NCBI RefSeq assembly: GCF_000226975.2
Contig: NZ_CP019285.1
Location: 2,418,001 to 2,482,000 of the forward strand
Reading direction: 5' to 3'
DNA from: Halobiforma lacisalsi AJ5
Lineage (GTDB): Archaea; Halobacteriota; Halobacteria; Halobacteriales; Natrialbaceae
DNA: 64,000 nt
A program made the translations under genes and the position numbers. This document shows, one piece after another, positions 23,292 to 41,039 of the stretch (positions are counted from its first letter, which is position 1; every line of letters starts with the position of its first letter). The notes under the pieces were generated by a model that saw nothing but the letters and a program-made list of their open reading frames with translations, searched no databases and was not told the origin of the DNA.

Positions 23292-24740
23292 TTACCCCGA
23301 AGTCTCAACAGCCGGTTCAGTGTGAGCCCGTGATATCATCTCATTGTTGTTGACGACTCGGCGAAGTTCTTCGTAGGGATTGCGTCCCTGCTGGCGCCAT
23401 GTCGCCAGCAGGGACAAGATCGTCTCGTGAACGAACATACCTCGATCGTTACGGAGTGTCCCGATGATTTTCCGGAGAACGACTGGTTCACGAAGTGCGT
23501 TCTCAGCTGCGTTGTTCGTCGGGGAGACCGCTGGCTCACCGACGAAGGTGAGCCAGTGGTCGATCCCTCCTTCGATTTTCCCGAGTAGTGTTGCCACTGG
23601 TTCGTCGGTTACTGACCGCCCCACGAGCGATCTAAGCCCGTTCTGGCATGAGCGGTGCATCTGTGCTCTCTCACGAAGACTCGGGTCGGTCTCCAGCCAC
23701 GACTGGAGACCGACGAACATCTGCTTGAGATACCGGTAAACGGGTTCTGCCTCCTCGTGGTCACTAGCAGCGTCTTCAGCTTCTCGGAGAAGATGTGCCC
23801 AGCACCGCTGAAGGTTACTGCTGAACGCTGGATACGCCGTCCACCCATCGCAGATGACCGTTCCCGGGAAGTCCTCGCCGAGGACTTCCGCGGGAACATC
23901 ACTTCCACGACTCTCCCTTACGGCGTATAGCGTGTGCTCGCTCGTCCGAAACGTCCAAATCCACGCCTGCTCACCCTCGCGTTTGATACCGGTTTCGTCA
24001 ACGTGAACGATCTCTGCTTGCTGAATCTGTCTTCGAATCTGTTCGTATTCGCAGCGACCGGCGCGCGCAGCGCGCTCGGTCGCGTGCCACGCGGACGCGC
24101 CCGAGAGTTCTAATCCATGCAGTTGCTCGAACCGGTCAGCGATTTTCCGGTAGGGGAGGCGGTGATCGTACCGAGAAAGTGCTGCTTGAGAGATGACGTT
24201 CACCCCGAACTGCCCCTCATCGGGGCAGTCGGGGTGTGTAGCAACGGTTTCTGTTCCACAAGAGCTGCACTGGTAGTAGTGACGGTTGTACCGGGTGATT
24301 TCTGGTGGCTGTGGATCGGGAACCTCCTCGACGAGTCGGGGGCTGACGCCCACCGACTCGTCGAAGTGTTCGCCACACTCGGGACAACAGTCACAGGTGA
24401 CATCGATCTCTTTGTCGGGATCTGCTGTTGCACGCCACTCAGGGTCGTGACCGTCCTTCCGTCCGGGAGTACCGCCATCGGTTCGAACATTCTCGTCTTC
24501 GTCGTCCTGCGAGGTCGGGGACTCGTCAGTCCCCGACCGTCGCTTACTGGGCGGTGTATGCGGATTTTCGTATTTGCGAAGGCGTGTTTCGAGTTCTTCT
24601 ATCCGCTCGTCCTTCTGATCGATTTTCTTGTCCTTTCGCTTGTTCTCCCGTTCGAGTTCTTCGACTCGTTGCTCAAGTTGGAGAAGCCGAGAAAGGAGCT
24701 CTTCTTTGGTGAAATCGTCTGCGTTCACAGACTCCACCAA
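23292..24740 (-). CDS. IS66 family transposase (TnpC-like)
   Basis: A 482-residue transposase. The order is: an N-terminal coiled coil (residues about 10-58, LLQLEQRVEELERENKR), a low-complexity linker, a zinc-binding stretch (CDCCPECGEHF and CSSCG), then a DDE nuclease with VHVDETGIKREGEQAW (first Asp), ICDGWTAYPAF (second Asp) and SPTNNAAENALR (Glu). All key residues are present and the frame is intact, so the element may still be mobile if its ends are complete. Confidence 0.92.
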   Translation of the reverse strand: MVESVNADDFTKEELLSRLLQLEQRVEELERENKRKDKKIDQKDERIEELETRLRKYENPHTPPSKRRSGTDESPTSQDDEDENVRTDGGTPGRKDGHDPEWRATADPDKEIDVTCDCCPECGEHFDESVGVSPRLVEEVPDPQPPEITRYNRHYYQCSSCGTETVATHPDCPDEGQFGVNVISQAALSRYDHRLPYRKIADRFEQLHGLELSGASAWHATERAARAGRCEYEQIRRQIQQAEIVHVDETGIKREGEQAWIWTFRTSEHTLYAVRESRGSDVPAEVLGEDFPGTVICDGWTAYPAFSSNLQRCWAHLLREAEDAASDHEEAEPVYRYLKQMFVGLQSWLETDPSLRERAQMHRSCQNGLRSLVGRSVTDEPVATLLGKIEGGIDHWLTFVGEPAVSPTNNAAENALREPVVLRKIIGTLRNDRGMFVHETILSLLATWRQQGRNPYEELRRVVNNNEMISRAHTEPAVETSG

Positions 24741-24763
24741 CCAGTAGTGACAGCAGAAGTAAC

Positions 24764-24792
24764 GGGATGGGCTCCGGTGCGGAGCCCATCCC
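24764..24792. repeat. Perfect 12-bp stem-loop upstream of the IS66 transposase
   Basis: GGGATGGGCTCC at 24764-24775 and GGAGCCCATCCC at 24781-24792 form a perfect 12-base-pair stem with a five-base loop, 24 bases upstream of the transposase ATG. On the transposase strand it would fold in the leader and may limit translation or read-in from outside promoters. Confidence 0.7.
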
Positions 24793-24903
24793 TGAGAATC
24801 GTATCCGAGGTCTGCTGCCTGTTCATATCGCGTCCGTTGAACGCTTCCTACGAGAGAGTACCGAAATCAGCCCGGGCTAAACACATACTGTTGATCGAAT
24901 GCT

Positions 24904-25697
24904 GGCCAGGCTACTGCGGCACCACCACCGAACCCTGGAGATACGTGGAGCGTCTCAGTTTGCAGCTCCGAACGCTATTACTGGCCGTTGTCGCATATAT
25001 TCGCCCCCTGCTGGGCCCTCGTCCGACGAGTTAGTTTTCTCCAAACCCGTTCGTGGACTACTCGGTTCATCCGTCACTGCCTCGAGTTGTTCGGACGATC
25101 CAGAGCTACACGACATGGTTCGAGATCACCATCGGCCGATCGTTTTGGCTTCCATCTCCTGGAAGGTGCACTTCGTTCGAACCGTTGTTTGACCGTCGGG
25201 AAACCACTGGCCATCGTGGCGGGCGGATCGAGCTACGATAGCTCGGGTAGTCTCCGCGTCGCAGGCTCCGCGCATACGTTGCACCGACCAAGAGCCGTTT
25301 CTCGAGTGATACACACGCGTCGGCCGGAACTCGACGTCGATATGGGATTGACACCTCCTTGGTATCGTCTTCCACCCATCCGATTGGGCGGCAGTGCTCA
25401 GAGAACGTGACGTCCCGGGCCTCGAGAACTGTGGTTGCTACCGCCGTTGCTCACCTCGAGAGGCACTTGCTCGGACAGCACGACAGTAGCCCTGCCCCCA
25501 AATAAACTATATATCGATATATGAATTTGCGCTCGTGCCGATATCGACGAGGCAGTGCTCGGTGCCGGCGGCCCACACGCTCGAGAGAAGCACTGCTACT
25601 GGGTACGTCGGCACTGATCACAGTCGAAAGGACACGGTCTGACAACCACGCCCCCGTAAACTCGCCGGTCACAGTGGGAGGTCGTCCAGCGCGAGAC
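24904..25697. other. Non-coding stretch with an AT palindrome
   Basis: About 800 bases without a convincing gene. Frames here are rich in Arg, Ser and Pro on both strands. At 25509-25522 there is a perfect 14-base palindrome ATATATCGATATAT followed by GAATTT, which looks like a strong promoter or protein site with no gene after it. The rest may be decayed coding DNA. Confidence 0.45.
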
Positions 25698-26936
25698 TTA
25701 CTCGTCGACAGCTGTTGCGGTACCGACGGTACTGGAATCGGTCGGGTTCGCACCCCCGTATTGCTCTACGAGTTCGTCGAGTCGGTCCGTCTCATCGACT
25801 GCCGGAAGCCTTCGAGTCGCAGTCTCGCACGTCGCATCGATATCGAGTCGGGCACAAACACGATCAGCGGTGACCTCGGCCATTCGGCGGTACGTCGTCA
25901 ACTTGCCGCCAACGACGCTAACGAGCCCCGAAACTCCTTCGTCAGCGTGGTCGATCACGGTGAAGCCGCGAGAAATCCCTCGGCGGTCAGATCCGGCTTC
26001 ATCCGGCGCGTACAGGGGACGCACACCCCACCAGGTTCGGACTGTCGGTGCGTCGGCGACGGACGGGAGCATCGCCGCACACTCCGAGACGGACCGTTCT
26101 ACCTCCCAGTCTGGCCGATCGTACTCGTCGGGGTCGTTGACGGGAACGCTCGTCGTCCCGAGGACGACCTCCCCCTCGTGGGGAACGATGATGTCGCCGT
26201 CATCCGGTTCCCGACAGCGGTTCAGCACTGGCCCGAGGTCGTCGTACTCGACCGCAACCATCACACCTCGAGACGGAGCCATCCCGACCGTGGCACCAGC
26301 CATCTCGGCGAGCTGTCCGGCCCACGCCCCTGCCGCGTTGACGACGATTTCGGGCCTGACCGTGCCGTCGAGGTCGCCGCCTAACTCGACCGAGTCGATC
26401 CGTTCGTTAGAGACGGTTACGTCCGTAACCGGGGTATTGGGGCGGACTGCTGCTCCGTGGGCCTCGGCGTCGGCCGCGTTCGCAGCGACCAGTCGTGACG
26501 GATAGACGACGCCGTCGGGGACGCGGAACGCCTCGACGACGTCGTCGGACAGTCCGGCCACCTGCTCGCGTGCTTCGTCGCCGTCGAGACGTTCCACCTC
26601 GATACCGGCAGCCTTGCAGGCCGCCATCTTCCGTTCGAAGTAGTCCTCGTCATCTTCAGCCAGTCGAACGAACAGCCCGCCGGTATCGCGGATACAGGCC
26701 CCCGCAATGTCCTTGAGGATTCGATTCTCCGCGAGACACTCTTCGGCACTCTCCAGATCGGCTTCGGCATAGCGTGCACCGCTATGGAGCAACCCGTGGG
26801 ACCGACCCGATGTTCCGCTTGCAAGTCCATCACGATCGACGAGCATCACGTCGACGTCGCGCAACGCCAGGTCTCGGGCGACGCCAGCGCCCGTCGCGCC
26901 ACCCCCAACGACCAGAACCGTCGGATCGGTCGTCAC
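25698..26936 (-). CDS. FAD-dependent glycerol-3-phosphate dehydrogenase-like protein (short GlpA)
   Basis: A 412-residue FAD oxidoreductase. The N-terminal VLVVGGGATGAGVARDLA binds FAD, followed by the GlpA-type RSHGLLHSGARYA and the C-terminal VVGGKLTTYRRMAE. It would oxidise glycerol 3-phosphate to dihydroxyacetone phosphate. Haloarchaeal GlpA is usually about 570-590 residues with a C-terminal [2Fe-2S] BFD-like domain and is followed by glpB and glpC. Here the protein ends soon after the catalytic domain and no glpB or glpC is present, so it is a shortened orphan or a distinct paralog, in a region of mobile DNA. Activity is uncertain. Confidence 0.8.
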   Translation of the reverse strand: MTTDPTVLVVGGGATGAGVARDLALRDVDVMLVDRDGLASGTSGRSHGLLHSGARYAEADLESAEECLAENRILKDIAGACIRDTGGLFVRLAEDDEDYFERKMAACKAAGIEVERLDGDEAREQVAGLSDDVVEAFRVPDGVVYPSRLVAANAADAEAHGAAVRPNTPVTDVTVSNERIDSVELGGDLDGTVRPEIVVNAAGAWAGQLAEMAGATVGMAPSRGVMVAVEYDDLGPVLNRCREPDDGDIIVPHEGEVVLGTTSVPVNDPDEYDRPDWEVERSVSECAAMLPSVADAPTVRTWWGVRPLYAPDEAGSDRRGISRGFTVIDHADEGVSGLVSVVGGKLTTYRRMAEVTADRVCARLDIDATCETATRRLPAVDETDRLDELVEQYGGANPTDSSTVGTATAVDE

Positions 26937-27216
26937 GGTTCACCTCGGACGGAAATCGATCGCTGGCAGGACGAAATACCTCGAATCCGTCGGCTGGTCG
27001 TCTGTGAAAGCGTCACGTCCTATGTTAGGAGTAGGTTCACTTGAGGCTGCCGTCGAAGTAGTCGAGGCGCTCCCTACCGGCTCGGCCAGCGGTAGTTCGT
27101 CTCTCGACGCTTGCCTGACAGGGAATCGGTCGTCGCTGTCGTAACCGCGGGTCCGCCTTTGAGTCGACTACGTAGCGATAATCCGAACGACGACTCAGCC
27201 GGCAAGAAAAGGCAAA

Positions 27217-27774
27217 TTAGATTTTCTCGAGGCTGTCTTCGAGCAGGGACTCGAGTCTCCGAATCCGTTCCTTGAGGAATTCGACGTCCGGTTCCGGTTC
27301 AGGTTCGGGTTTCGACTCCGACTCCGAACCGGACGTCTCCGGACCGGCGTCGTTGGACGACGTGACCGCCTGGACCAGAATGTCTTCGAACGCGTCGTCC
27401 ACGTCCTGCAACTCGATAGCCATCTGTATCCCATCACGAACGAATTCGCTCCGGGTCTGTCCCTGCTGTTCGGCCGCAGAGTCCGCACTTTCGATCAGTG
27501 CCTTTGGGACACGCACTGTGACCTTTTGTGTCTCCTGGAGATCGTAATCCGTCGCAGTAGCGTCGAGATACCGGGAGCCACCCAGCATCGCGGCAACCTG
27601 GTAGTGGGTCGAGCACAAAACGACTGTCGCGTCGTCTTTTGACGGCGGGCCGAGCGAATACTCCCGAAGGGACTGTGCTGAGCCACACACTTCACACCCG
27701 CCTTGCGGAGACCGCCGGCGCTCCTGATCGGGATATTCGATGTAGTCGTCCGTCTTCGATTGATCGGCTGGCAT
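27217..27774 (-). CDS. Zinc-finger/ribbon-helix-helix protein with C-terminal coiled coil
   Basis: A 185-residue protein. Residues 20-65 have CEVCG and LCSTHY, a probable zinc knuckle. Residues about 80-115 read KVTVRVPKALIESADSAAEQ and fit a ribbon-helix-helix DNA-binding domain. A low-complexity Pro-Glu stretch follows, and the C-terminus (FLKERIRRLESLLEDSLEKI) is a coiled coil. This mix is common in plasmid and chromosomal copy or partition regulators of haloarchaea. An insertion sequence sits about 50 bases upstream of the ATG and may have displaced its promoter. Confidence 0.7.
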   Translation of the reverse strand: MPADQSKTDDYIEYPDQERRRSPQGGCEVCGSAQSLREYSLGPPSKDDATVVLCSTHYQVAAMLGGSRYLDATATDYDLQETQKVTVRVPKALIESADSAAEQQGQTRSEFVRDGIQMAIELQDVDDAFEDILVQAVTSSNDAGPETSGSESESKPEPEPEPDVEFLKERIRRLESLLEDSLEKI

Positions 27775-27822
27775 ATTCGCTCGTTTCAGCCCTTGCTGCA
27801 ATCTCAGTCTTCCATCATAATA

Positions 27823-27831
27823 GTAGTATCT
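27823..27831. repeat. Left target-site duplication of the DDE insertion sequence
   Basis: GTAGTATCT here and at 28901-28909 flank the insertion sequence exactly. A perfect 9-base duplication points to a recent transposition. Confidence 0.85.
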
Positions 27832-28900
27832 GAGGGTGTCATAGAACGATTACCACACCAAAGAGCAGGGTGAATGCTGAGATGGTATGGCCTCAGCGAC
27901 CCTGCAAGATGATCCTTCGGTAGAGTCGTTCTTCAATGTCGCGGAGACCGAGACGCTAGCGTTGTTCGAGCACCTCTCCTTCGAGTTTCTCGAAGAGTTC
28001 GACGTGTTCGCCCCGGCGCAGACGGGGCGAACACGAGAGCATGAACCACCAGAGTTGATGCGTGGCTTCCTCCACTGCTACTACAAGGACATCTACGGGA
28101 TTCGTCCGGTTGAGCGAGAGCTTCGGAACACGGTTGTTTGGCTCAGCTGTGGGTTCGATCGACCGCCGTCCAGAGACGCGGTCGATCGCTTTCTCACCGA
28201 CCTCGAACACGTCGTTGACGAGGTCTTTGGCCGACTCGTCGAGCAGGCCGCCCGCCGCGGCCTGCTCGACTTGACTTACTGCATCGATTCAACTGACGTG
28301 AGGGCGATGCCTGCCGATCAAGACGCGTCGAAGTGCTACGATCCAACCGACGACGAGTACTACCACGGCTACGGCTGTACGATCGTCTCGACCGGACAAA
28401 AGATCCCGATTGCGGCGGAGTTCACAGAGAGTAAGCAAGCGCCAGAGGAGACGGCGATGCGCGTCACGCGTGACGCGCTCGCCGTCTCCACACCGATCTG
28501 GATGCTTGGAGACAGCGCCTACGACACGCTCGACTGGCACGACCACCTGCTGGCCGCAGGGGTCGTGCCAGTCGCTCCGTACAACGCGCGAAACACCGAC
28601 GAGCCGAAAGATATCGAGTACAGAGTCGAAGACCGCATCGACGAACACAGCGAAGACGTTCAACTGAAGCAATCCACGTTGGATGAGACGTACAACCGCC
28701 GTACGGGGGTTGAACGAACCAACGAATCAGTCAAGGACTGCGGCCTCGGGCGAACGCACGCCCGAGGCCGCGTCCACGCACGAGCGCAGGTGTTCCTCGC
28801 ACTCTGTCTGCGCCTCGTGGTCGCCATCACCAACTATGAACGCGGAGACAATCCGGGAAGCACCATCATCACGGTGTGAGAAGAGTTCTATGACACCCTC
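27832..28900 (+). mobile_element. Complete DDE insertion sequence (IS4/IS5-type), 1069 bp
   Basis: Perfect 16-base inverted ends, GAGGGTGTCATAGAAC at 27832-27847 and GTTCTATGACACCCTC at 28885-28900, enclose one intact transposase gene and are flanked by the 9-base duplication GTAGTATCT. The element is structurally complete and probably active or recently active. The IS family name should be set by comparison with a reference collection. Confidence 0.9.
27887..28879 (+). CDS. DDE transposase (IS4/IS5-type)
   Basis: A 330-residue transposase. The first catalytic Asp is in YCIDSTDVRAM, the second in MLGDSAYDTLDW and the Glu in VERTNESVKD. The N-terminal part (GFLHCYYKDIYGIRPVEREL) has the helical DNA-binding look of the IS4/IS5 group. 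The gene occupies almost the whole element between the inverted ends. The frame is intact. Confidence 0.9.
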   Translation: MASATLQDDPSVESFFNVAETETLALFEHLSFEFLEEFDVFAPAQTGRTREHEPPELMRGFLHCYYKDIYGIRPVERELRNTVVWLSCGFDRPPSRDAVDRFLTDLEHVVDEVFGRLVEQAARRGLLDLTYCIDSTDVRAMPADQDASKCYDPTDDEYYHGYGCTIVSTGQKIPIAAEFTESKQAPEETAMRVTRDALAVSTPIWMLGDSAYDTLDWHDHLLAAGVVPVAPYNARNTDEPKDIEYRVEDRIDEHSEDVQLKQSTLDETYNRRTGVERTNESVKDCGLGRTHARGRVHARAQVFLALCLRLVVAITNYERGDNPGSTIITV

Positions 28901-28909
28901 GTAGTATCT
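28901..28909. repeat. Right target-site duplication of the DDE insertion sequence
   Basis: GTAGTATCT, identical to 27823-27831. It confirms the right boundary of the element. Confidence 0.85.
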
Positions 28910-29080
28910 AGTAACCTTCTCGAGACGTATCAGCTCTCCCCTGGAAACGGAGAACCACCAACACCACCATCGACGGTGTACAGTAGGTACGTCTCGAGAA
29001 ACGAACCCCGTTCTACGACGGAAACTCGACGGTCAGTGAGGCGAGACAGTTTTGATGGGAGTCTCGAGAGTCGACCGCGT

Positions 29081-29431
29081 TCAAACGTTGGTCGTGAGTT
29101 CGAGGTACGGGGACAGTACCCCTCGCTCGACGCTCAGTGAGATGGCTTCCGTCTCCAGATCGTATGTCACGAGACCACAATCACGCATCTGTGGCAAATG
29201 CGAATGGTAGAGATCAGTACAGATCCGTTCGTACCACTCCTGTGTAGCGTTTCCCTCATTGATCGCGATGTATTCGGCGAGATCTCCGAGGAGAACGTCG
29301 CCCGGCCGTCGTATCAGATAGGCGAGTATCTGTTGGCGTCGCTCATTGGCGAACATCGCGAACAACGTCGTCGAGGGAATCTCGTCCGTCCCTGTGTCCG
29401 TATCGTCTGGGGTGCGGGCTTGTGGCGTCAT
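29081..29431 (-). CDS. Winged-helix protein (DUF7344-like)
   Basis: A 116-residue haloarchaeal winged-helix protein. It contains FANERRQQILAYLIRRPGD, then the segment RICTDLYHSHLPQMRDCGLV that ends in a wing, and VERGVLSPYLELT at the C-terminus. Another protein with the same RQ/IC-x-x-L-Y-H-x-H-L-P core is encoded at 31803-32207, on the other side of the parA pair. Two start codons are possible (29431 and 29449); I chose the nearer ATG. Target unknown. Confidence 0.75.
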   Translation of the reverse strand: MTPQARTPDDTDTGTDEIPSTTLFAMFANERRQQILAYLIRRPGDVLLGDLAEYIAINEGNATQEWYERICTDLYHSHLPQMRDCGLVTYDLETEAISLSVERGVLSPYLELTTNV

Positions 29432-29611
29432 GTCGTCTCCGTACTTCACCTACGCGTCGGAAGTCAACGGTTTCTCAGTCGGCGACTTCAGCAGAGTACA
29501 GGTCACCATTAGCGCCACATAGTATAGCTATTTCTACCGGTCGATATCAAAAGAAATCAAACCGTCAGGGATCGGATTCTGTTGGGTGCGTCCCGTTAGG
29601 ATACCGGTCGC

Positions 29612-29818
29612 TCAGTCGTCGAGGAACGTGGACTCGTGGGGGGAGTCCGCCTCGCTCAGCCGTTTCTCGACCGTAATCGACCAGTCTGGAGCCGATGAAA
29701 CTGGTACCTCGATGTCCCACTGCCCTTCGATTGCGTCCCCACGAGCGAACGCAGTGAGAATCAACGTCTCGAGTTCGTCTTCGAACGAAGGGTCCCCGGT
29801 GTTGCTATCTGCAGCCAT
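29612..29818 (-). CDS. Small conserved haloarchaeal protein
   Basis: A 68-residue acidic protein: an N-terminal helix FEDELETLILTAFARGDAIE, then GQWDIEVPVSSAPDWSITVE. Small proteins with the same 'E-G-x-W ... P-D-W-x-V-x-I-E' pattern are common in haloarchaea, usually of unknown function. The ATG at 29818 was preferred over 29854. No partner is seen. Confidence 0.6.
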   Translation of the reverse strand: MAADSNTGDPSFEDELETLILTAFARGDAIEGQWDIEVPVSSAPDWSITVEKRLSEADSPHESTFLDD

Positions 29819-29998
29819 ATGGTTTCTCGATGGGTGTCGTCCAGTCGGTGCCATCCCGCTGTACGACTACGTACTCCATGCAGCGAACGATAATAAAGAA
29901 GTCGCGCTTACTTGGCGCTTCGTCGATAGGTTGCTTTGACCCGCTACGGAAACGGAATGTCTCGTGATCGACCTCGAAGGACGAACCGTCGGGTACCG

Positions 29999-30415
29999 CT
30001 ACTGTGATCGCCGTTCTTCGAGCAGTAACTCGGCTACACGGTCCGGTTGCTCGTTGGCGAGTTTCAGAACGGCGTTGTGGATTTCCCTCGTCGCTTCGTC
30101 CACGACGTCCGCCTGGGCGAGTCGCGGGCCGATAGTCGTTCGAACGTTCTTTTCGAACTGGGCCCATTCTTCGTCTTTCGCGTACAGCGGCTTTTGTCGC
30201 ACTTCGCTGTACTCGAATGCCGGTCCCGTCTCTGCGGGATCCGCCGATGCCTCGCTTTCGCCGGTCGCTCCCTCGTCGCTCGTCGACAGCGTGGATGTGG
30301 TCGTCTCCTGTGTCGTGGACTCCGTCGATCGTCTGCCCGACTTACCCGAGGCGGACGAGTCCTCGTCGTTCCCGGATTCGGTTCCACTTTCGAGGTCGTC
30401 GAACGGATTGCTCAT
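29999..30415 (-). CDS. Small ParA partner protein (candidate centromere-binding or adaptor)
   Basis: A 138-residue protein, translationally coupled to parA by an ATGA overlap. Residues 1-70 are disordered and rich in Ser, Thr, Asp, Glu and Gly. Residues about 71-138 are structured and helical: FEYSEVRQKPLYAKDEEWAQ, then NVRTTIGPRLAQADVVDEAT and VLKLANEQPDRVAELLLEER. It has no ParB Spo0J-type N-terminal motif and no clear ribbon-helix-helix. Gene position and size match the small site-binding partners of plasmid type Ib and related partition systems, though their DNA-binding end is usually ribbon-helix-helix. A DNA-binding role is inference. Confidence 0.65.
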   Translation of the reverse strand: MSNPFDDLESGTESGNDEDSSASGKSGRRSTESTTQETTTSTLSTSDEGATGESEASADPAETGPAFEYSEVRQKPLYAKDEEWAQFEKNVRTTIGPRLAQADVVDEATREIHNAVLKLANEQPDRVAELLLEERRSQ

Positions 30416-31299
30416 CGTTCGATCCCTCCGTTCGTAACGATCGCGGCCAGTTCCTCGTAACAGGGGATCTGATCGCTTTCCGGATCGTAGTCCTGTAGTG
30501 GCTGGTTGTGCTGGAGCGACCGGGAAAGCGACGAACGATACCTGATTCCCGGCTTGGGCGTATCGATTTCACCTGCGTCGATCTGCTCGAACGTTTCAGC
30601 TGTGATTCGAGCGAAGTCGGGAACTGCCTCCTGCAGTGGTTGGCCCGGATTGACCTCGTAACTGGCGGTGTTCAGGTTCTCCAGCAGCTCTCGATCTTCG
30701 GTCCGTTGATCGATCCGATCCTCGAGTTTGTTGGGAACGACTGCGAGAACGTCGACGTCGATATACTCACGTGCCGGTTCGATCAGCCGCTCCATCGTTC
30801 GCTTGTAGCCGCCGATCGCGCTCGAGCCCGGTTCGATGGGGATCATGACGTTGCCCGTCGCGACCAGGGCGTTGTTGTTCAACATTCCGGGATATGCTGG
30901 ACAGTCGAACACGATGTAGTCGTACACGTCGCCGAGCAGCGGATCCACGACCTTCGATTTGATTCGTGCGGATCCCTGCATCGCGCCGGCGAGGTCGTTC
31001 TCGACGTCCTCGAGCGTATTCGAAGACGGAAGCAGGTCGAATCCGTGTTCAGTCTCACGGATCAGGTCGCTCGGGGTGGCATCGCCCTCGAGGAGAACGT
31101 CGCCGAGATCGAGGTCCGCCCCATACGCGTCTTCGAATCCTAGGCCGTTTGTCGCGTGCCCGTTCGGGTCCAGATCCGCAAAGAGCGTATCACCCCGTTC
31201 GGCGAGCTGTCGGGCCAGGTTGATCGAGGTCGTTGATTTCCCGACACCGCCTTTGAGGATGACGACGCTTACAGCGCGTGGCTCGTCTGTGGCTCCCAT
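30412..31299 (-). CDS. parA: ParA/Soj-family partition ATPase
   Basis: A 295-residue ATPase with the deviant Walker A motif LKGGVGKSTT, including the signature lysine K16 and K21. The Walker A' segment is FADLDPNGHATNG with D42 and D44, and the Walker B-like segment is YDYIVFDCPAYPG. ParA proteins form an ATP-dependent gradient on the nucleoid and move DNA bound by their partner. The gene starts 28 bases from a palindrome and about 140 bases from an AT-rich 9-bp array, and is coupled to the small partner. On a chromosome with an rRNA operon in the same window, this suggests an integrated plasmid or a second partition locus. Confidence 0.9.
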   Translation of the reverse strand: MGATDEPRAVSVVILKGGVGKSTTSINLARQLAERGDTLFADLDPNGHATNGLGFEDAYGADLDLGDVLLEGDATPSDLIRETEHGFDLLPSSNTLEDVENDLAGAMQGSARIKSKVVDPLLGDVYDYIVFDCPAYPGMLNNNALVATGNVMIPIEPGSSAIGGYKRTMERLIEPAREYIDVDVLAVVPNKLEDRIDQRTEDRELLENLNTASYEVNPGQPLQEAVPDFARITAETFEQIDAGEIDTPKPGIRYRSSLSRSLQHNQPLQDYDPESDQIPCYEELAAIVTNGGIER

Positions 31300-32590: not shown

Positions 32591-34768
32591 TCACCCCGGA
32601 TCCTCGTCCCGATGGAAATCGGACAACTCCAGTTCTCGAGTCTCCGCGAGTGCCCGTCGAATGTCCGTCCGGTCCCATCCCACCGGCGAAAGCACGCTCT
32701 CGACGGCTCGGACGAGTTGCGTCTCGTAGTACGACGGATCGTACGACTCGACCGCTTCGTGGGCCAGCGCAACCCGCTCTCGAGAGGTCTTCTCGTCGTC
32801 GACGACCACGTACTCGATAGTTTGTCCGGGATGGACGGCAATATCCTGCTCCCGGGTGCGTTTCAGCGCGGCCACGTTCTGGGTGTTCTGCGTGTACCCC
32901 TCGAGCGGTTTGGAGACCCGGTTCCGTTCGACGAGTCGGTCGGTCGGAACTGTGCCGGCGTGAAGTCGCTCGAGTGCGTCCTCGAGGCAGGCGAGGACGG
33001 CTTCCGGTGACCGGGTCACATCGAATCGCTCGAGACACTCCCGCTGGACGTCCGCGATGAACTCCGGGGTCGACCGCTGTCGGGCCTCGATTCCTCTGAT
33101 CTTGAACTCGTCTTCGCCGGCGACTCTGCCGAAGTACTTCGTCAATGCGCCGGCGTCGCTCTCGCGCTGGGGAACGAACGCGACCCAGTCGTAGTGGGCT
33201 TCGTGTTCGAGCCGGACGTCGACGGCCTCCGTAACCGCCGTCGCGAGCGTCTCGAGAGCCGTCCGCTCGGTATCGTCGACGTCCGGGTCCGGCGTCACCC
33301 AGATCGAATCGACGATTCCGTGGACGACGCGCCACCCGCCGGCTTCCAGGCGTCGCTTGGCCGTCAACAGGATTTCGCGGGCGTACGCGTTGATCGCTTC
33401 GTGGCACTCGATCCGGCCGAACTTCGCGTTGCTGAACCCCTGGTACCCGAAGCAGGTGACGAGGATCCACTTCAGTGCCCCCGACTGGCCTTCGAGTTCC
33501 TCGAGCCGTTGCCGGTCGGGATCGTCGCGTTGCCGTTCGTGACGGATCGCGGCCTTGATCTCGTCACGCGCGTCGACGATCGGCTCGAGTACGTCGACGA
33601 GATAGCCCCGGTCGTCGCAGATCGAGTAGCCGAGCCCGGGTACGTCGTCGCGATCGTGACACTCACAGCGGATGACGTCCGGAGAGACGTTGCGCGTACA
33701 GATGATGTTCGGATACAAACTCGAGAAATCCAGTTCGTGGACGTCCTCGTGCAGGCCGACGTCCGGCGCAAAGACGAATCCGCCGCGGTCGGCATCGTGG
33801 AGCGTCCCCATCGGTTTGTAGAACTCGTGTCGCCAGGAGTTCCACGGTACGAGGACGCCACGGTCGTGGGCTTCACGGATCTGGATCGCGGTGAGCACGT
33901 TCCCGATCGACGCCCACGCGAGTTCCTGCACCGGTTTCCACGAGCGCGACACGAGATCGAGGACTCCCTGGAGGTTCGTCTCGCCGTAGAAGAAGGTGTT
34001 CGACTCGTCGACGATCGCTCGTCCCGGAACGTTGTACCGGGCGGGCGAATGCCCGACCCGACCGTAACTCGAGTACGTCGACCGGCTCGCGAGTTGCTGG
34101 TAGTCGACGTCGGGCCAGCGACTCAGCGTGAACTCGTCGATATCGACGTCGCCGTCGGCAGCCGCGGCCATCCCGTGTAGCGTCGGGACGATCTCGCCGG
34201 TCGAACAGACGAGGACGTCCGGATCCCTGGCATCGAGCGCCGCCTGGACTGCGGACAGGATTTCCCCCGGCGACCCGGTGACGGTCTCGCCGTCGATGGA
34301 CAGTTCCGTGTATACCTCACTGCCCGTTTCGGGTACCGGAACCTCGAGTCGGAGCGTCGACAACTCCCTCGCCGGCGTCGGGTCGAGCCCGTTCTCCAGA
34401 CAGTAGCGGAACTCCCGCGAAAAGTCGACGTTGAAGCATGCGAGGTCCCCGACGGGATATGCGGACAGTTGGCGGGCCCGTCGGGCGAGCCGAGTCACTC
34501 GGTCGACGTGTGCGACGTCGACTGCGAGGACCGGCTCTTCTCCCCGTCGAAAGGCCGGCCGTCGCGTAACGATCTCGGTCGAAACGACCTCCGGGTGTCG
34601 GTCATACGTCGTCCGCAGTTCCGCGAGATCGATGTCGGTTTCCGGGGAGCGAGGGGCGACGAAGAACCGCGGCGTATAGTCGTCGCGCTCGGTCGCGACG
34701 GCACCGTCGGCGGTCGCTTCCCACTCGAGTACGCGGCCGTCGTCGAGGAAGTCGATGGTGAACGGCAT
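32591..34768 (-). CDS. Divergent B-family DNA polymerase (PolB2-type)
   Basis: A 725-residue B-family polymerase. Motif A is HELDFSSLYPNII (D347), motif B is KWILVTCFGYQGFSNAKFG (K433) and motif C is VVHGIVDSIWV (D487). The usual motif C is YGDTDS; here the first Asp is Ile485 and the second is kept. In motif B, the usual Asn is Val437. Exonuclease motifs are degraded: the Exo I region reads RLEV and the Exo II region TGEIVPTL with no Asp. So proofreading is probably lost and catalysis may be weak or specialised. The gene is 1 base downstream of a small coiled-coil gene and near a RecA-like gene. Confidence 0.85.
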   Translation of the reverse strand: MPFTIDFLDDGRVLEWEATADGAVATERDDYTPRFFVAPRSPETDIDLAELRTTYDRHPEVVSTEIVTRRPAFRRGEEPVLAVDVAHVDRVTRLARRARQLSAYPVGDLACFNVDFSREFRYCLENGLDPTPARELSTLRLEVPVPETGSEVYTELSIDGETVTGSPGEILSAVQAALDARDPDVLVCSTGEIVPTLHGMAAAADGDVDIDEFTLSRWPDVDYQQLASRSTYSSYGRVGHSPARYNVPGRAIVDESNTFFYGETNLQGVLDLVSRSWKPVQELAWASIGNVLTAIQIREAHDRGVLVPWNSWRHEFYKPMGTLHDADRGGFVFAPDVGLHEDVHELDFSSLYPNIICTRNVSPDVIRCECHDRDDVPGLGYSICDDRGYLVDVLEPIVDARDEIKAAIRHERQRDDPDRQRLEELEGQSGALKWILVTCFGYQGFSNAKFGRIECHEAINAYAREILLTAKRRLEAGGWRVVHGIVDSIWVTPDPDVDDTERTALETLATAVTEAVDVRLEHEAHYDWVAFVPQRESDAGALTKYFGRVAGEDEFKIRGIEARQRSTPEFIADVQRECLERFDVTRSPEAVLACLEDALERLHAGTVPTDRLVERNRVSKPLEGYTQNTQNVAALKRTREQDIAVHPGQTIEYVVVDDEKTSRERVALAHEAVESYDPSYYETQLVRAVESVLSPVGWDRTDIRRALAETRELELSDFHRDEDPG

Positions 34769-34769
34769 A

Positions 34770-35075
34770 TTACGCCTCTGGATCACATGCGGTGTCTTCC
34801 CGATCGTCGCGTTCGTCGAGGGCGGCCTCGAGCGTCTCGAGTCGTTGTTCGTACTCGTCGAGACGGGCCTCCTGCTCGAGGTCGATGCTGAGGAGAGCGG
34901 GCAGGAGGGGGTTCCGGTGGTTCAATAACCCGCTCGCGTCGGCGTGTTCCCGGGCGTACTCGAACAGTCGGTCGAAGCGCGGTTGATCGCGACGCCGAAG
35001 GGCGCGGCGAAAGTCCGCCCAGCGCTCCTCGAGGGCCCGTAGCGCGTCCCGGTACGTCGGGTTGGTTCGGCCCAT
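34770..35075 (-). CDS. Small coiled-coil protein of the PolB2 cassette
   Basis: A 101-residue, charged, helical protein. It starts MGRTNPTYRDALRALEERWA and has a heptad-like region near residues 70-95 (EARLDEYEQRLETLEAALDE). It sits between a RecA-like gene (2 bases upstream) and PolB2 (1 base downstream), so the three must be made together. No family is recognised. It may link polymerase and RecA-like protein, as a small adaptor. Confidence 0.7.
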   Translation of the reverse strand: MGRTNPTYRDALRALEERWADFRRALRRRDQPRFDRLFEYAREHADASGLLNHRNPLLPALLSIDLEQEARLDEYEQRLETLEAALDERDDREDTACDPEA

Positions 35076-35077
35076 CG

Positions 35078-36025
35078 TTATCGCCCCCCTGTGTCGGCGG
35101 CGGTCCATGCCTCGAGCAGCGGGGTTGCACTGTCGGCTGTCGAGTCCATCCCCGTTCCCGACCCCACCTCGACGGCATCCGGGCCCCCCGTCGACGGCTC
35201 GGTGGTCGGCTCGAGGCCGACCTGTCGTGCACGGAGTTCGAGTACCCGTCGCCAGTAGGCAAACGTCGTCTGGTAGTACGCGCCGTCGTCGACCGGATAG
35301 ACGACTGTCTCGAAGTCCTCGCCCACGAACCGCGGGCCCAGTTTCGTTCGTTCGCATTCTATGCGACGGTCGGCTGCCGTCTCGATCGGCCTCGAGAACT
35401 CGTCGCGCTTGCTGCGTGTGACGAGGACCGGAACGTCGTACCCGTCGGCGTAGCTCCCCAGTCGTGCGAGCGTCCGTGCCTGGAGGGTCTCCGCCCCTTC
35501 TCCGGTGAGGGAATCACTGGCCCGGTACTGGACATCGACTGCCGGAACGACGACGAGAGACGGGGTGTGTGGGGACGATGTTTCACACCGATTGGACGGC
35601 GATCGGTCTCGAGGCTCGGCATCGGTCGTCGATCGCTGGATGGATCGGTTCACCGCCGTCGGGAGGTCACGGATCGCCCCGTAGTGCTGGTAGGCGGTGA
35701 ACCCACGGGCGACGTGAATCCGGTCGAGTAACCGTCCGCTCGGTGCGATCCGGGCGAGCGAAGTCGTCGTCGCGTGGCCGTCCCCGTCGATCCAGAAAGC
35801 GGGCCCCTCGTTGAGAAGGAGGTGATCGAGGACGAACGACTGCAGGATTTGGACGCCGCGCCCACCGGCTACATCGAGGAGCGTGATCCCGTTCGAAAGC
35901 CGGGGAAAGAGCATCCCGTCGGTGGCCGGATCGGCCCGGTCGACGAGGTTCCGGTTGCGATCGGCGTCCCGGGTCGGTCCATCGACTGTCATCCGATTCG
36001 ATTCCGAGTGGGAGTACGCGGCCAT
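35078..36025 (-). CDS. RecA/RadA-superfamily protein without a functional Walker A
   Basis: A 315-residue protein with the RadA-like core fold by order of strands: GITLLDVAGGRGVQILQSFV in place of the P-loop, FWIDGDGHA, then VARGFTAYQHYGAIRDLP as in RadA and PSLVVVPAVDVQYR at the Walker B strand. The P-loop lacks the GKT, so ATP use is unlikely. The start may be at 36025 or 35992. As first gene of the three-gene cassette with PolB2, it resembles the role of ImuA (a RecA-like protein) next to the error-prone polymerase in bacteria. This parallel is inference. Confidence 0.75.
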   Translation of the reverse strand: MAAYSHSESNRMTVDGPTRDADRNRNLVDRADPATDGMLFPRLSNGITLLDVAGGRGVQILQSFVLDHLLLNEGPAFWIDGDGHATTTSLARIAPSGRLLDRIHVARGFTAYQHYGAIRDLPTAVNRSIQRSTTDAEPRDRSPSNRCETSSPHTPSLVVVPAVDVQYRASDSLTGEGAETLQARTLARLGSYADGYDVPVLVTRSKRDEFSRPIETAADRRIECERTKLGPRFVGEDFETVVYPVDDGAYYQTTFAYWRRVLELRARQVGLEPTTEPSTGGPDAVEVGSGTGMDSTADSATPLLEAWTAADTGGR

Positions 36026-36312
36026 ACGCGACTAGACGCCCACACACCCGATAAGCCGAGGCGTGTCGTTTCCGCGTTTCAGGAAAGACAACTCTCTGGG
36101 GAGAATCCGGCGTTCGGCGGGGGATACCCACCACGAGGACCGTTTCCGGGAACGGTTCCTGAATCGTCGATCCTCGGGAGTCGTCGGCTCCCTCCTCACC
36201 GTCACCGTCAAGCTATCAAGGGTGTGAAAGGCCGAGGGAACGTCCCCTGTTTTCAAGCCAACACTGCATGAACGCCTACATATAAGATCCGGTGGCGGTA
36301 GTGAACTCGTAT

Positions 36313-36882: not shown

Positions 36883-37911
36883 TTACCGAATTGCCGGAGT
36901 GGCAGTCGAGTCGACGATCGAATACTCCCGATCACGGCTCGTCCCTTCGGCCTCGAGAAGGTTGTACTGGGCCATCTTCGAGAGATAGGTCCGGACGGTT
37001 CGTTTCGTTCGTGGATCGTCGACCTCGGCGGTATATCGGTCGTGGATTTCGTTCGGACTGAGCGGTCCGTGGTCACGAACGATATCGTAGACGACTCGCT
37101 GGTGTGGGGTGAGCGAATCCAGACTCTTTCGTTTGATTTGAGCGCGTGCGTCTTCCGCTGCAGCGAGGAGGATATCGTCGGTAATCCGCTCGCGGTTCTC
37201 GCGGTCGGCCTTGCCGGCCGCCGAGCGGAGAATGCCGATCGCGAGCCGGGCGTCGCCGGCGGCCGCGTCAGCGATGCGATAGAGCTGTTCGTCGGTGATG
37301 ACGGCTTCTTCGAGTCCCCACTTCGCGCGAGCGTCGAGGATATCGTAGAGCTGTCCGTCGGAGTAGCTGTCCATCCGGACGTGTTCGCTCGAGCGGAGTC
37401 GACTCACTAGCCTGTCGTCGACCCGGTTGAACAGGTCTTCCTCTTCGTTCGCGATACAGACGATCGCGAACTGCGGCAGGCTGTGGAGGTCATAGATCAC
37501 GCTCGGATCCTCGAGTTGATCCGCCTCGTCGAGGATGACGACCGTTCGGGGACCGTCGTGGTGCTGCAGTCGATCGATGAGTTCGTCGTGTGGCGTCGAC
37601 TGTCGGTGGATGTCGATCGTCGTTCCGAGGTCGTCGAGGATCCGGTAGAGCGTCCGGAACCGGGTGTAGTTGCGCCAGCAGTTCACGTAGGTGACCTCGA
37701 CGTCCAGGACTGCTTCCCGCAGCCGTTCGGTGACGAACTTCGAGAGACAGGTCTTTCCCGCGCCGCTGGGCCCGGTGACGATGGCAGTCTCCGCCGGTTC
37801 GCCGTTCGTGATCGGTTCGAGGACGCTGGAGAGGTGGTTGACCTCGGCGTCGCGATGCTCGACCTCTCGAGGGACGAACCCGGCCCGGAGGACTCGAGCA
37901 TCGCGGATCAT
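36883..37911 (-). CDS. Orc1/Cdc6-family replication initiator
   Basis: A 342-residue AAA+ protein. The P-loop is GPSGAGKT (47-54), Walker B is VVILDEADQL (D128, E129), the sensor 1 region IVCIANEEEDL, the sensor 2 arginine in GDARLAIGILRSAAG, and a C-terminal winged helix (VYDIVRDHGPLSPNEIHDRY). It is shorter than most haloarchaeal Orc1/Cdc6 proteins (usually 370-420). Such accessory copies often sit next to a plasmid or integrated origin. Two GTTTCCGG(G/A)AA repeats lie just upstream. Confidence 0.9.
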   Translation of the reverse strand: MIRDARVLRAGFVPREVEHRDAEVNHLSSVLEPITNGEPAETAIVTGPSGAGKTCLSKFVTERLREAVLDVEVTYVNCWRNYTRFRTLYRILDDLGTTIDIHRQSTPHDELIDRLQHHDGPRTVVILDEADQLEDPSVIYDLHSLPQFAIVCIANEEEDLFNRVDDRLVSRLRSSEHVRMDSYSDGQLYDILDARAKWGLEEAVITDEQLYRIADAAAGDARLAIGILRSAAGKADRENRERITDDILLAAAEDARAQIKRKSLDSLTPHQRVVYDIVRDHGPLSPNEIHDRYTAEVDDPRTKRTVRTYLSKMAQYNLLEAEGTSRDREYSIVDSTATPAIR

Positions 37912-38740: not shown

Positions 38741-40165
38741 TCAGCCCTGCAGGTCTTCGTAGCGTGCCTCGAGGTCGATTATCGGCTCGGGGTAGTCGAC
38801 GCCCGGCCGGACGCCGTACTCGGCTCGCTCGCCCTCGCTCAGTTCCCAGGGCCTGTGGACGGCCTCGGGCGGCACCCCCTCGAGTTCGGGCAGCCAGGTC
38901 GTCACGTACTCGCCGTCGGGGTCGTAGTACTCGGCCTGGGAGAGGACGTCGAAGTAGTTGTCCCGGGAGTCGTTCCCCACGCCGGCCTGATAGGCCCAGT
39001 TGCCCCAGTTCGAGGCGACGTCGTAGTCGACGAGTCGCTCCTCGAAGTACGCCGCTCCCCAGCGCCAGTCGATCCCGAGCGCGTCGGCGAGAAACGAGGC
39101 GACGTTCTGTCGGCCGCGGTTCGACATGTATCCCGTCCGATTCAGCTCCCGCATGTTCGCGTCGACGAAGGGGATTCCAGTCTCGCCGTTCGCCCACCGA
39201 TCGAACGCCTCGCGGTCGCGTTCCCACGCCTTTTCGACGTCTCGGATCCCGTTGGGGTGGAAAAACCGCGAGCCGTGCTTGCAAAACTGGAACTGGAAGA
39301 AGTCCCGCCAAAGCAACTCGAAGACGAGCCAGTAAGTGTCCTCGTTCGAGACCCGCTCGTCCTCGTACCGACGAACCTCCTCGTGGATCCACCGCGGCGA
39401 GAGACATCCCGCCGCCAGCCACGGCGAGAACTTCGAGGAGTACGCCGCACCAAGCAGCCCGTTTCGCGTCTCCTTGTACTCCCGCAGGCGATCCTCCTCC
39501 CAGAAGTACTCCTCGAGACGGCGTTTACCGGCCGATTCGCCGCCCTCGAACCGCAGGACGGCCCGGTCGTCGTCCGTCGGCGCCTCGAGGCCGTACTCGG
39601 ACACCGTCGGGACGTCGCCCGCGGGCAGGTCCGGAGTCGGAACCGCGTCCGGGGGCGCGACGAGGTCTCGAACCGAACACTCGCGTTCGACCGCCTTGCG
39701 CCACGGCGTGAACGTATCCTGCATCCGCTCGTACGACGTCGGCAGGTCCGAGACGTGATACAGCGTGTGCGTCCAGCGGCGTTCGAACGAGACGTCGTCG
39801 GGAAGGGTTTCTCGAACCCCAACTTCGGTCTCGAGTTCCTCCGTCGCCGGTTTCGTCTGTGCGTAGACGGCATCGGCGTCGACGCGACCCGCGACTTCGG
39901 GAAGGACCGTCTCCGGCCGACCGCGTCTGACGAACAGGTCGCCGCCTCGGTCCTGGAGTCCCGCCCGTAACTCGAGCAGCGACTCCCGGCGGAATCTCGC
40001 GCGGTGGGCCCCGAGCTTTTCGGTTCCGTACTCCGTCTCGCCGCGCTTCCGGGGATCGACGACGTAGAGCGGCACGACCTCGTCCGCTGCGGTAACCGCG
40101 TCGGCGAGCGTCGGATTGTCCGTGATCCGGAGGTCGTCCCGGAACCAGACGACGGCGGTTTCCAT
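38741..40165 (-). CDS. DASH-type cryptochrome/photolyase
   Basis: A 474-residue flavoprotein of the photolyase family. The N-terminal Rossmann-like part starts METAVVWFRDDLRITDNPTL, and the C-terminal FAD domain contains MRELNRTGYMSNRGRQNVAS and DYDVASNWGNWAYQAGVGND, both typical of the DASH subfamily. These enzymes repair cyclobutane dimers in single-stranded DNA with blue light and may act as sensors. Haloarchaea also carry a separate CPD photolyase, usually elsewhere. I chose the ATG at 40165, where the protein-like part begins. Confidence 0.88.
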   Translation of the reverse strand: METAVVWFRDDLRITDNPTLADAVTAADEVVPLYVVDPRKRGETEYGTEKLGAHRARFRRESLLELRAGLQDRGGDLFVRRGRPETVLPEVAGRVDADAVYAQTKPATEELETEVGVRETLPDDVSFERRWTHTLYHVSDLPTSYERMQDTFTPWRKAVERECSVRDLVAPPDAVPTPDLPAGDVPTVSEYGLEAPTDDDRAVLRFEGGESAGKRRLEEYFWEEDRLREYKETRNGLLGAAYSSKFSPWLAAGCLSPRWIHEEVRRYEDERVSNEDTYWLVFELLWRDFFQFQFCKHGSRFFHPNGIRDVEKAWERDREAFDRWANGETGIPFVDANMRELNRTGYMSNRGRQNVASFLADALGIDWRWGAAYFEERLVDYDVASNWGNWAYQAGVGNDSRDNYFDVLSQAEYYDPDGEYVTTWLPELEGVPPEAVHRPWELSEGERAEYGVRPGVDYPEPIIDLEARYEDLQG

Positions 40166-40352
40166 GTTCTCTCCAGGGAAACCGGGATCAAGTATCTGTG
40201 GCCCAACGTCGAAAACGGCCGGCGGGACGGCGCCGTGATCGTCTAACCGGCGGAAGGCGCTCGTCGGCACCCGAATACCCGGGCCTTCGAAAGCGGGTAC
40301 CCGACTCGAGCACCCCATGCCATATTTTACCAGTCGGTGACGTTGGTACCCT

Positions 40353-41039
40353 ATGCTCCTTGCGGCCTTCCGGATCGAACTGGACGCCCTCGCCCTGGCG
40401 GACACTTTTGCTCGATTATCCGACCTGCAGATCGAGGCCCAACGGATCGCGGCCCACAGCACGAAGTGGACGATGCCCTGCATCTGGGCCAGTAACGTCG
40501 ACTTCGACGAGCTCGATACGATGCTCGCGGACGATCCCTCCGTCGACGAAATCGTCGAAACGGCGGAGTTCAGCGGCGAAAAGTTCTACCAACTCGAGTG
40601 GAGCGACGAGATCGAAGCCCGGATCAACGCCTACCTGGATACTGAAGCGTCGATTCTCCACGCGGAGGCCACCGCTGACGGCTGGCGGATCCGCATCCGC
40701 TTTGGCACCCGGGAGCAGTTCGACGCCTTTCGGGCGATCCTCGCCAAGGGGGACTACGAGTTCACGCTCCTCGAACTCTCCCAGCCGGACGACCCGCGAC
40801 ACATGGGTGGGAAGCTGACACCGGCCCAGCGCGAGGCGCTCCGCAAAGCGAAAGAACTCGGCTACTACAAGGTTCCCCGCGAGATTTCGACGCGCGAACT
40901 CGCCGACGAACTCGGGACGTCCCACCAGAACCTCTCGGAGCTCCTGCGCCGCGCGACGGACAACCTCATCGATGCGGCCGTTCGGACCACCGCCACGACC
41001 GATCCGGTTCGACGAACCGACGGAAAGGAGCGACCATAA
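40353..41039 (+). CDS. Bat-type transcriptional regulator with HTH_10
   Basis: A 228-residue regulator: a variable sensor-like N-terminal domain of about 150 residues, then a C-terminal HTH_10 (KLTPAQREALRKAKELGYYK, then PREISTRELADELGTSHQNL). The TATA-like CATATTTTA lies about 25-30 bases upstream of the ATG, so the message is probably leaderless. Such regulators in haloarchaea respond to oxygen, redox or light. It is divergent from the cryptochrome gene with 187 bases between, so regulation of that gene is a reasonable guess. Confidence 0.88.
   Translation: MLLAAFRIELDALALADTFARLSDLQIEAQRIAAHSTKWTMPCIWASNVDFDELDTMLADDPSVDEIVETAEFSGEKFYQLEWSDEIEARINAYLDTEASILHAEATADGWRIRIRFGTREQFDAFRAILAKGDYEFTLLELSQPDDPRHMGGKLTPAQREALRKAKELGYYKVPREISTRELADELGTSHQNLSELLRRATDNLIDAAVRTTATTDPVRRTDGKERP

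Follow-up and report, generated by a model that had tools for sequence, protein, structure and literature searches.

The three closely spaced genes analyzed here very probably constitute the haloarchaeal PolB2 mutasome operon, placed under a dedicated promoter element. They were found in a window of 64,000 nt from Halobiforma lacisalsi AJ5, and all three lie on the minus strand: iRadA (35078-36025, 315 aa) encodes a Rad51/RadA-family protein without a P-loop, that is, an inactivated recombinase paralogue, PPB2 (34770-35075) encodes a helical partner protein of 101 aa, and PolB2 (32591-34768, 725 aa) encodes a family-B DNA polymerase with a degenerate exonuclease domain and a motif C of the type xVD. 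The gaps are 2 bp between iRadA and PPB2 and 1 bp between PPB2 and PolB2, in agreement with the distances of 1-2 bases given in an earlier reading made from the DNA sequence alone (the sequence-only reading). For PolB2, a GTG start at 34786 from the list of open reading frames was rejected as too early; the relatives start with M(P/S/A)F, corresponding to 34768.

The cassette belongs to a system that has already been published. The PolB2 operon was described in 2014 (Makarova, PMC4104785), and a later study (Timinskas 2025, PMC11791011) modelled the mutasome as a heteropentamer, with PolB2, iRadA, and three PPB2 subunits, and compared it with Pol V. The published system agrees with the cassette in the window in its three proteins and their gene order, and also in the MGRT arm, an inactivated RadA, a polymerase with a dead exonuclease, and the orc neighbor. 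The sequence-only reading had supposed that the small protein lacks a name; it has in fact been known as arCOG07300 and was named PPB2 (PMC4104785, PMC11791011). In Sulfolobales, the PolB2 system is reported to be inducible by DNA damage and needed for targeted mutagenesis (PMC11791011, PMC8764526). By analogy, a complex of the Sulfolobus type, its damage induction, and its role in mutagenesis would also be expected in H. lacisalsi; for these three parts of the mutasome reading we draw on the Sulfolobus literature and on models, whereas the gene anatomy, the Rad51 kinship of iRadA, the co-occurrence of the genes, and the conservation of the promoter element were observed here. A search of the haloarchaeal literature found no data on damage induction or mutagenesis for the PolB2 cassette, and the main text of the two UV transcriptome studies of strain NRC-1 that were searched never mentions "polB".

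The polymerase was readily recognized, with a match of 1375 bits to NCBIfam NF004418 and an additional match to Pfam DNA_pol_B, and the Pfam scan of PolB2 gave no exonuclease-domain match. Motif A (ELDFSSLYP) is intact, whereas motif C reads HGIVDS, so that its first Asp is lost, as are the exonuclease motifs. These losses are what would be expected if PolB2 had no catalytic activity and a structural or regulatory role instead, as was proposed between 2008 and 2014. However, motif A and the second Asp of motif C do not vary across 21 relatives. The first Asp is also missing from Sulfolobus Dpo2 (PMC11791011), yet this enzyme is active as a polymerase, has no exonuclease activity, and extends mismatches (PMC8764526). 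A dead PolB2 is thus very improbable. As part of a mutasome, the exonuclease-dead PolB2 would most likely extend primers past lesions, as Dpo2 does. Two further motifs of PolB2 may concern its partners. The D(K/R) motif, which contacts the PPB2 arm in the published mutasome model (PMC11791011), would correspond to VDE in the window and to IIDE, IIDK, or IIDR in relatives, with a nearly invariant Asp and a variable basic residue. The C-terminus has the form RxxxL(S/T)x(F/Y) in many relatives and, by eye, resembles a clamp-binding (PIP) motif.

A Pfam scan of the iRadA protein of the window alone gave no match, and with a shallow profile the matches to the PDB or to RadA were weak. The kinship with Rad51 rests on a deeper profile, made from an alignment with 19 divergent relatives, which matched RadA in the PDB at 1.1e-10 and for which 59 of the 60 best matches belong to the RadA/Rad51/Dmc1/RadB family; in addition, 21 of 25 iRadA members matched Pfam Rad51. 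The region of the P-loop reads GGRGVQILQS and contains no P-loop lysine. iRadA is therefore, at the sequence level, a Rad51 relative without a P-loop, and the earlier assignment to the RecA superfamily, without this lysine, was borne out. A PLL(D/E)AWT motif at the C-terminus, again PIP-like as judged by eye, is invariant within the close clade. An AlphaFold model of iRadA, based on 21 close homologues, was discarded at a pLDDT of 31. In PPB2, the N-terminus MGRTNPTYR carries the MGRT motif defined for this family (PMC11791011), and across 25 relatives the columns of the MGRT arm and Arg9 show an invariance of 90% or more. In the proposed mechanism, iRadA, as a dead RadA paralogue docked like a RadA protomer, would help to hold PolB2 in the complex, and a PPB2 trimer would join it, with the MGRT arm reaching into the polymerase.

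The arrangement of the three genes is not due to chance, because gene order and spacing recur, PPB2 flanks most PolB2 loci, and the genes co-occur at the level of genomes. Of 242 haloarchaeal genomes, 143 have PPB2 and 152 have PolB2; 139 have both, 4 only PPB2, and 13 only PolB2 (odds ratio 230, p 8.5e-46 in a Fisher test that ignores relatedness). Among 80 haloarchaeal loci collected via PolB2, 29 are compact, with the same order and a spacing of 0-3 bp; an exonuclease gene follows PPB2 in 20, in one case as a fragment, and in 12 PPB2 and PolB2 are separated by other DNA. Altogether, PPB2 lies inside the examined flank in 61 of the 80 loci. The order iRadA-PPB2-PolB2 is also retained in divergent cassettes (L211-L230), in which iRadA is only 36-49% identical to that of the window. 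Co-occurrence and gene order in haloarchaea, proposed as a check in the sequence-only reading, thus supported the cassette. A regular occurrence of PolB2 without its partners, which that reading would have counted against a joint function, is not seen at the genome level (139 of 152 with PPB2) and is partly seen at the locus level, where 19 of the 80 PolB2 copies, some of them on short contigs, have neither PPB2 nor iRadA in the examined flank. The promoter element is present at most of these partnerless copies.

Several loci contain additional genes. Toxin-antitoxin-like pairs were found at the PPB2-PolB2 junction of L013 and between the exonuclease gene and PolB2 in L012, L021, L045, L050, and L056; they consist of a DUF7342 HTH protein with a TumE-like protein (below the Pfam cut-off) or of an RHH-like with a PIN-like protein (by eye). 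A conserved protein of 125 aa without a Pfam match starts about 33 bp after PPB2 in three loci (L042:4300-4677, L060:5354-5731, and L062:5355-5732), in the slot that is used elsewhere by the exonuclease. In L058, L067, and L076 (at PolB2 codon 30/31), a TnpB gene separates a residual 5' piece of PolB2 from a complete copy of this gene, and the same holds for iRadA in L016, L076, and L080 (at about iRadA codon 95); the arrangement suggests insertion followed by gene replacement. One could regard the three genes as mere hitch-hikers on mobile plasmids that do no joint work, in line with the plasmid location, the IS elements, and the toxin-antitoxin-like cargo at the junction, but this is hardly credible in view of the order and tight spacing that are conserved across the divergent cassettes and of the promoter element that the split parts have in common.

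This element occupies positions 36047-36159 of the window, ahead of iRadA on the minus strand. It comprises a far site (GGAACCGTTCCCGGAAAC, 36142-36159) that starts 134 bp before the iRadA ATG, a near site (TTTCCTGAAACGCGGAAACG, 36067-36086) that starts 61 bp before the ATG, and a conserved CACGCC..GGCTTATCGGG stretch (36047-36065), which from its position is the probable BRE/TATA region. An alignment of 55 iRadA upstream regions revealed the common succession of a far site GGAAAC..TTCTCGGAAAC, a near site TTCCCTGAAACGCGGAAGC, CACGCC..CTTATC, and then a short leader. The same module, with scores above those of shuffled sequences, precedes PolB2 in 44 of the 46 loci in which PolB2 is split from iRadA-PPB2. 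Because the element is kept before both iRadA and PolB2 once the operon is split, the separated parts are probably co-regulated.

The 242 genomes were also searched with a 27-base pattern, allowing up to 3 mismatches and using the reversed pattern as a control. The pattern gave 114 matches versus 1 for the control. Sixty of the matches precede iRadA and 26 precede PolB2; of the remaining 28, 20 were read, and 13 of these precede a cassette gene or a fragment of one, whereas 7 do not. Because the pattern was built from cassette promoters, its matches among close relatives do not count as independent, and independent weight is carried only by the split PolB2 genes and by the divergent cassettes; 13 of 19 of the latter have a GGAA-N5-GGAA repeat at -54 to -61, compared with 0.16 expected from shuffled sequences. 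A genome-wide regulon in the genome of the window, where the element occurs once, was considered and rejected, as there was one exact match and the other 14 matches all had 3 mismatches, versus 6 for the control. In three genomes (L196, L200, and L204) the element lies 117 bp ahead of the same transposase-like gene of 635 aa. The element is a putative transcription factor site or operator, and directly upstream of the probable TATA box it would drive the module in haloarchaea. Perhaps it is bound by the linked Orc protein. In Sulfolobus, damage-responsive genes are controlled by Orc1-2, which binds ANTTTC in their promoters (PMC9738581).

An Orc1/Cdc6-family gene (36883-37911; Cdc6_lid match at 5e-11) precedes the cassette in the same orientation, on the minus strand, and orc1/cdc6 occupies this position in most compact loci of relatives, a neighborhood that has been published for the PolB2 operon (PMC4104785, PMC11791011). 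IS66 and DDE transposases, a ParA gene, and a photolyase surround the cassette (23292-31299 and 38741-40396) and a stretch of lower GC content adjoins it, which suggests that the surroundings are integrated plasmid DNA. In this context, the cassette could be a module for plasmid replication or maintenance, in which PolB2, Orc, and iRadA help megaplasmids to initiate or restart their replication and the element serves as an origin recognition box. The many cassette copies on plasmids, the usual orc/cdc6 neighbor, and the nearby ParA would fit, as would the GGAAAC repeats of the element, which we take to resemble origin boxes. However, the element holds a narrow distance of about 55-85 bp to the start codon and goes with PolB2 when it is split off. 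Moreover, deletion of polB2 was possible both in Halobacterium NRC-1 (PMC1906834) and in Haloferax volcanii (PMC7776575), and a dispensable gene argues against such a role. A replication module is thus unlikely.

The mutasome operon also exists in a variant with four genes in the order iRadA-PPB2-exo-PolB2, although the exonuclease domain of PolB2 itself is dead. In 18 of the 20 loci with the exonuclease, its gene and the end of PPB2 share 4 bp. The protein is of the DEDDh type (RNase_H_2 by Pfam), with D10, E12, D102, H181, and D185 invariant in 19 sequences. Its profile gave no match to PDB sequences; with its structural model (pLDDT 67), all 30 PDB structure matches with E<1e-3 are family-B polymerases, and the whole protein (residues 1-207) aligns with their exonuclease-domain ranges at a Z of about 12-13. 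Of the 27 closest matches in the 242 genomes, 26 adjoin PPB2 (the exception is in G079). Compact four-gene cassettes are found in L117 and L118, and L119 has about 190 bp before PolB2. The exonuclease seems to have been gained or lost repeatedly, because the iRadA+PPB2 tree needs about 9 changes of its presence, at least 4 of which are forced by well-supported branches in a bootstrap that had not settled. The genome of the window was searched for the exonuclease and contains none. In L192, the promoter element lies ahead of a lone, 32% identical homologue of the exonuclease, with an orc gene adjacent. Tentatively, and at somewhat less than an even chance, one element might unite iRadA-PPB2, split PolB2, and the exonuclease homologue of L192 in a dedicated PolB2-mutasome regulon, with proofreading regained in trans in some lineages via an exchangeable fourth subunit. 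In E. coli Pol III, the proofreading exonuclease (epsilon) is likewise a polypeptide separate from the polymerase (alpha); in contrast, the separate haloarchaeal exonuclease resembles the intramolecular exonuclease domain of family-B polymerases.

The mutasome analogy drawn in the sequence-only reading fits the evidence and had already been published, albeit with Pol V (UmuC, UmuD'2, RecA) and not with ImuA as the counterpart. The E. coli Pol V mutasome shares with the cassette an error-prone polymerase, a RecA-family partner, and a small oligomeric arm protein (a parallel drawn in PMC11791011). It differs in its Y-family polymerase, its active RecA, its unrelated small subunit, and its SOS control. 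In the ImuA-ImuB-DnaE2 mutasome, a RecA-like protein, an accessory protein, and a polymerase are also encoded together. This bacterial system uses a C-family polymerase and an inactive Y-family ImuB, and we know of no homology of its polymerase or small subunit to those of the PolB2 cassette.

The cassette confirms the published system in haloarchaea, where we infer its function. While the three-gene cassette was already known, the promoter element and the stand-alone exonuclease as a fourth gene were absent from the main texts that were searched, including those on the PolB2 mutasome (PMC4104785, PMC11791011). The element offers a concrete handle on how haloarchaea might control mutagenesis, with a parallel in Orc1-2 and ANTTTC of Sulfolobus (PMC9738581). 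If the exonuclease acts on the products of PolB2, a mutagenic polymerase would have been given back its editing function as a separate subunit. If both the regulon and proofreading in trans are true, a modular switch would result, with error-prone extension on one side and edited synthesis on the other.
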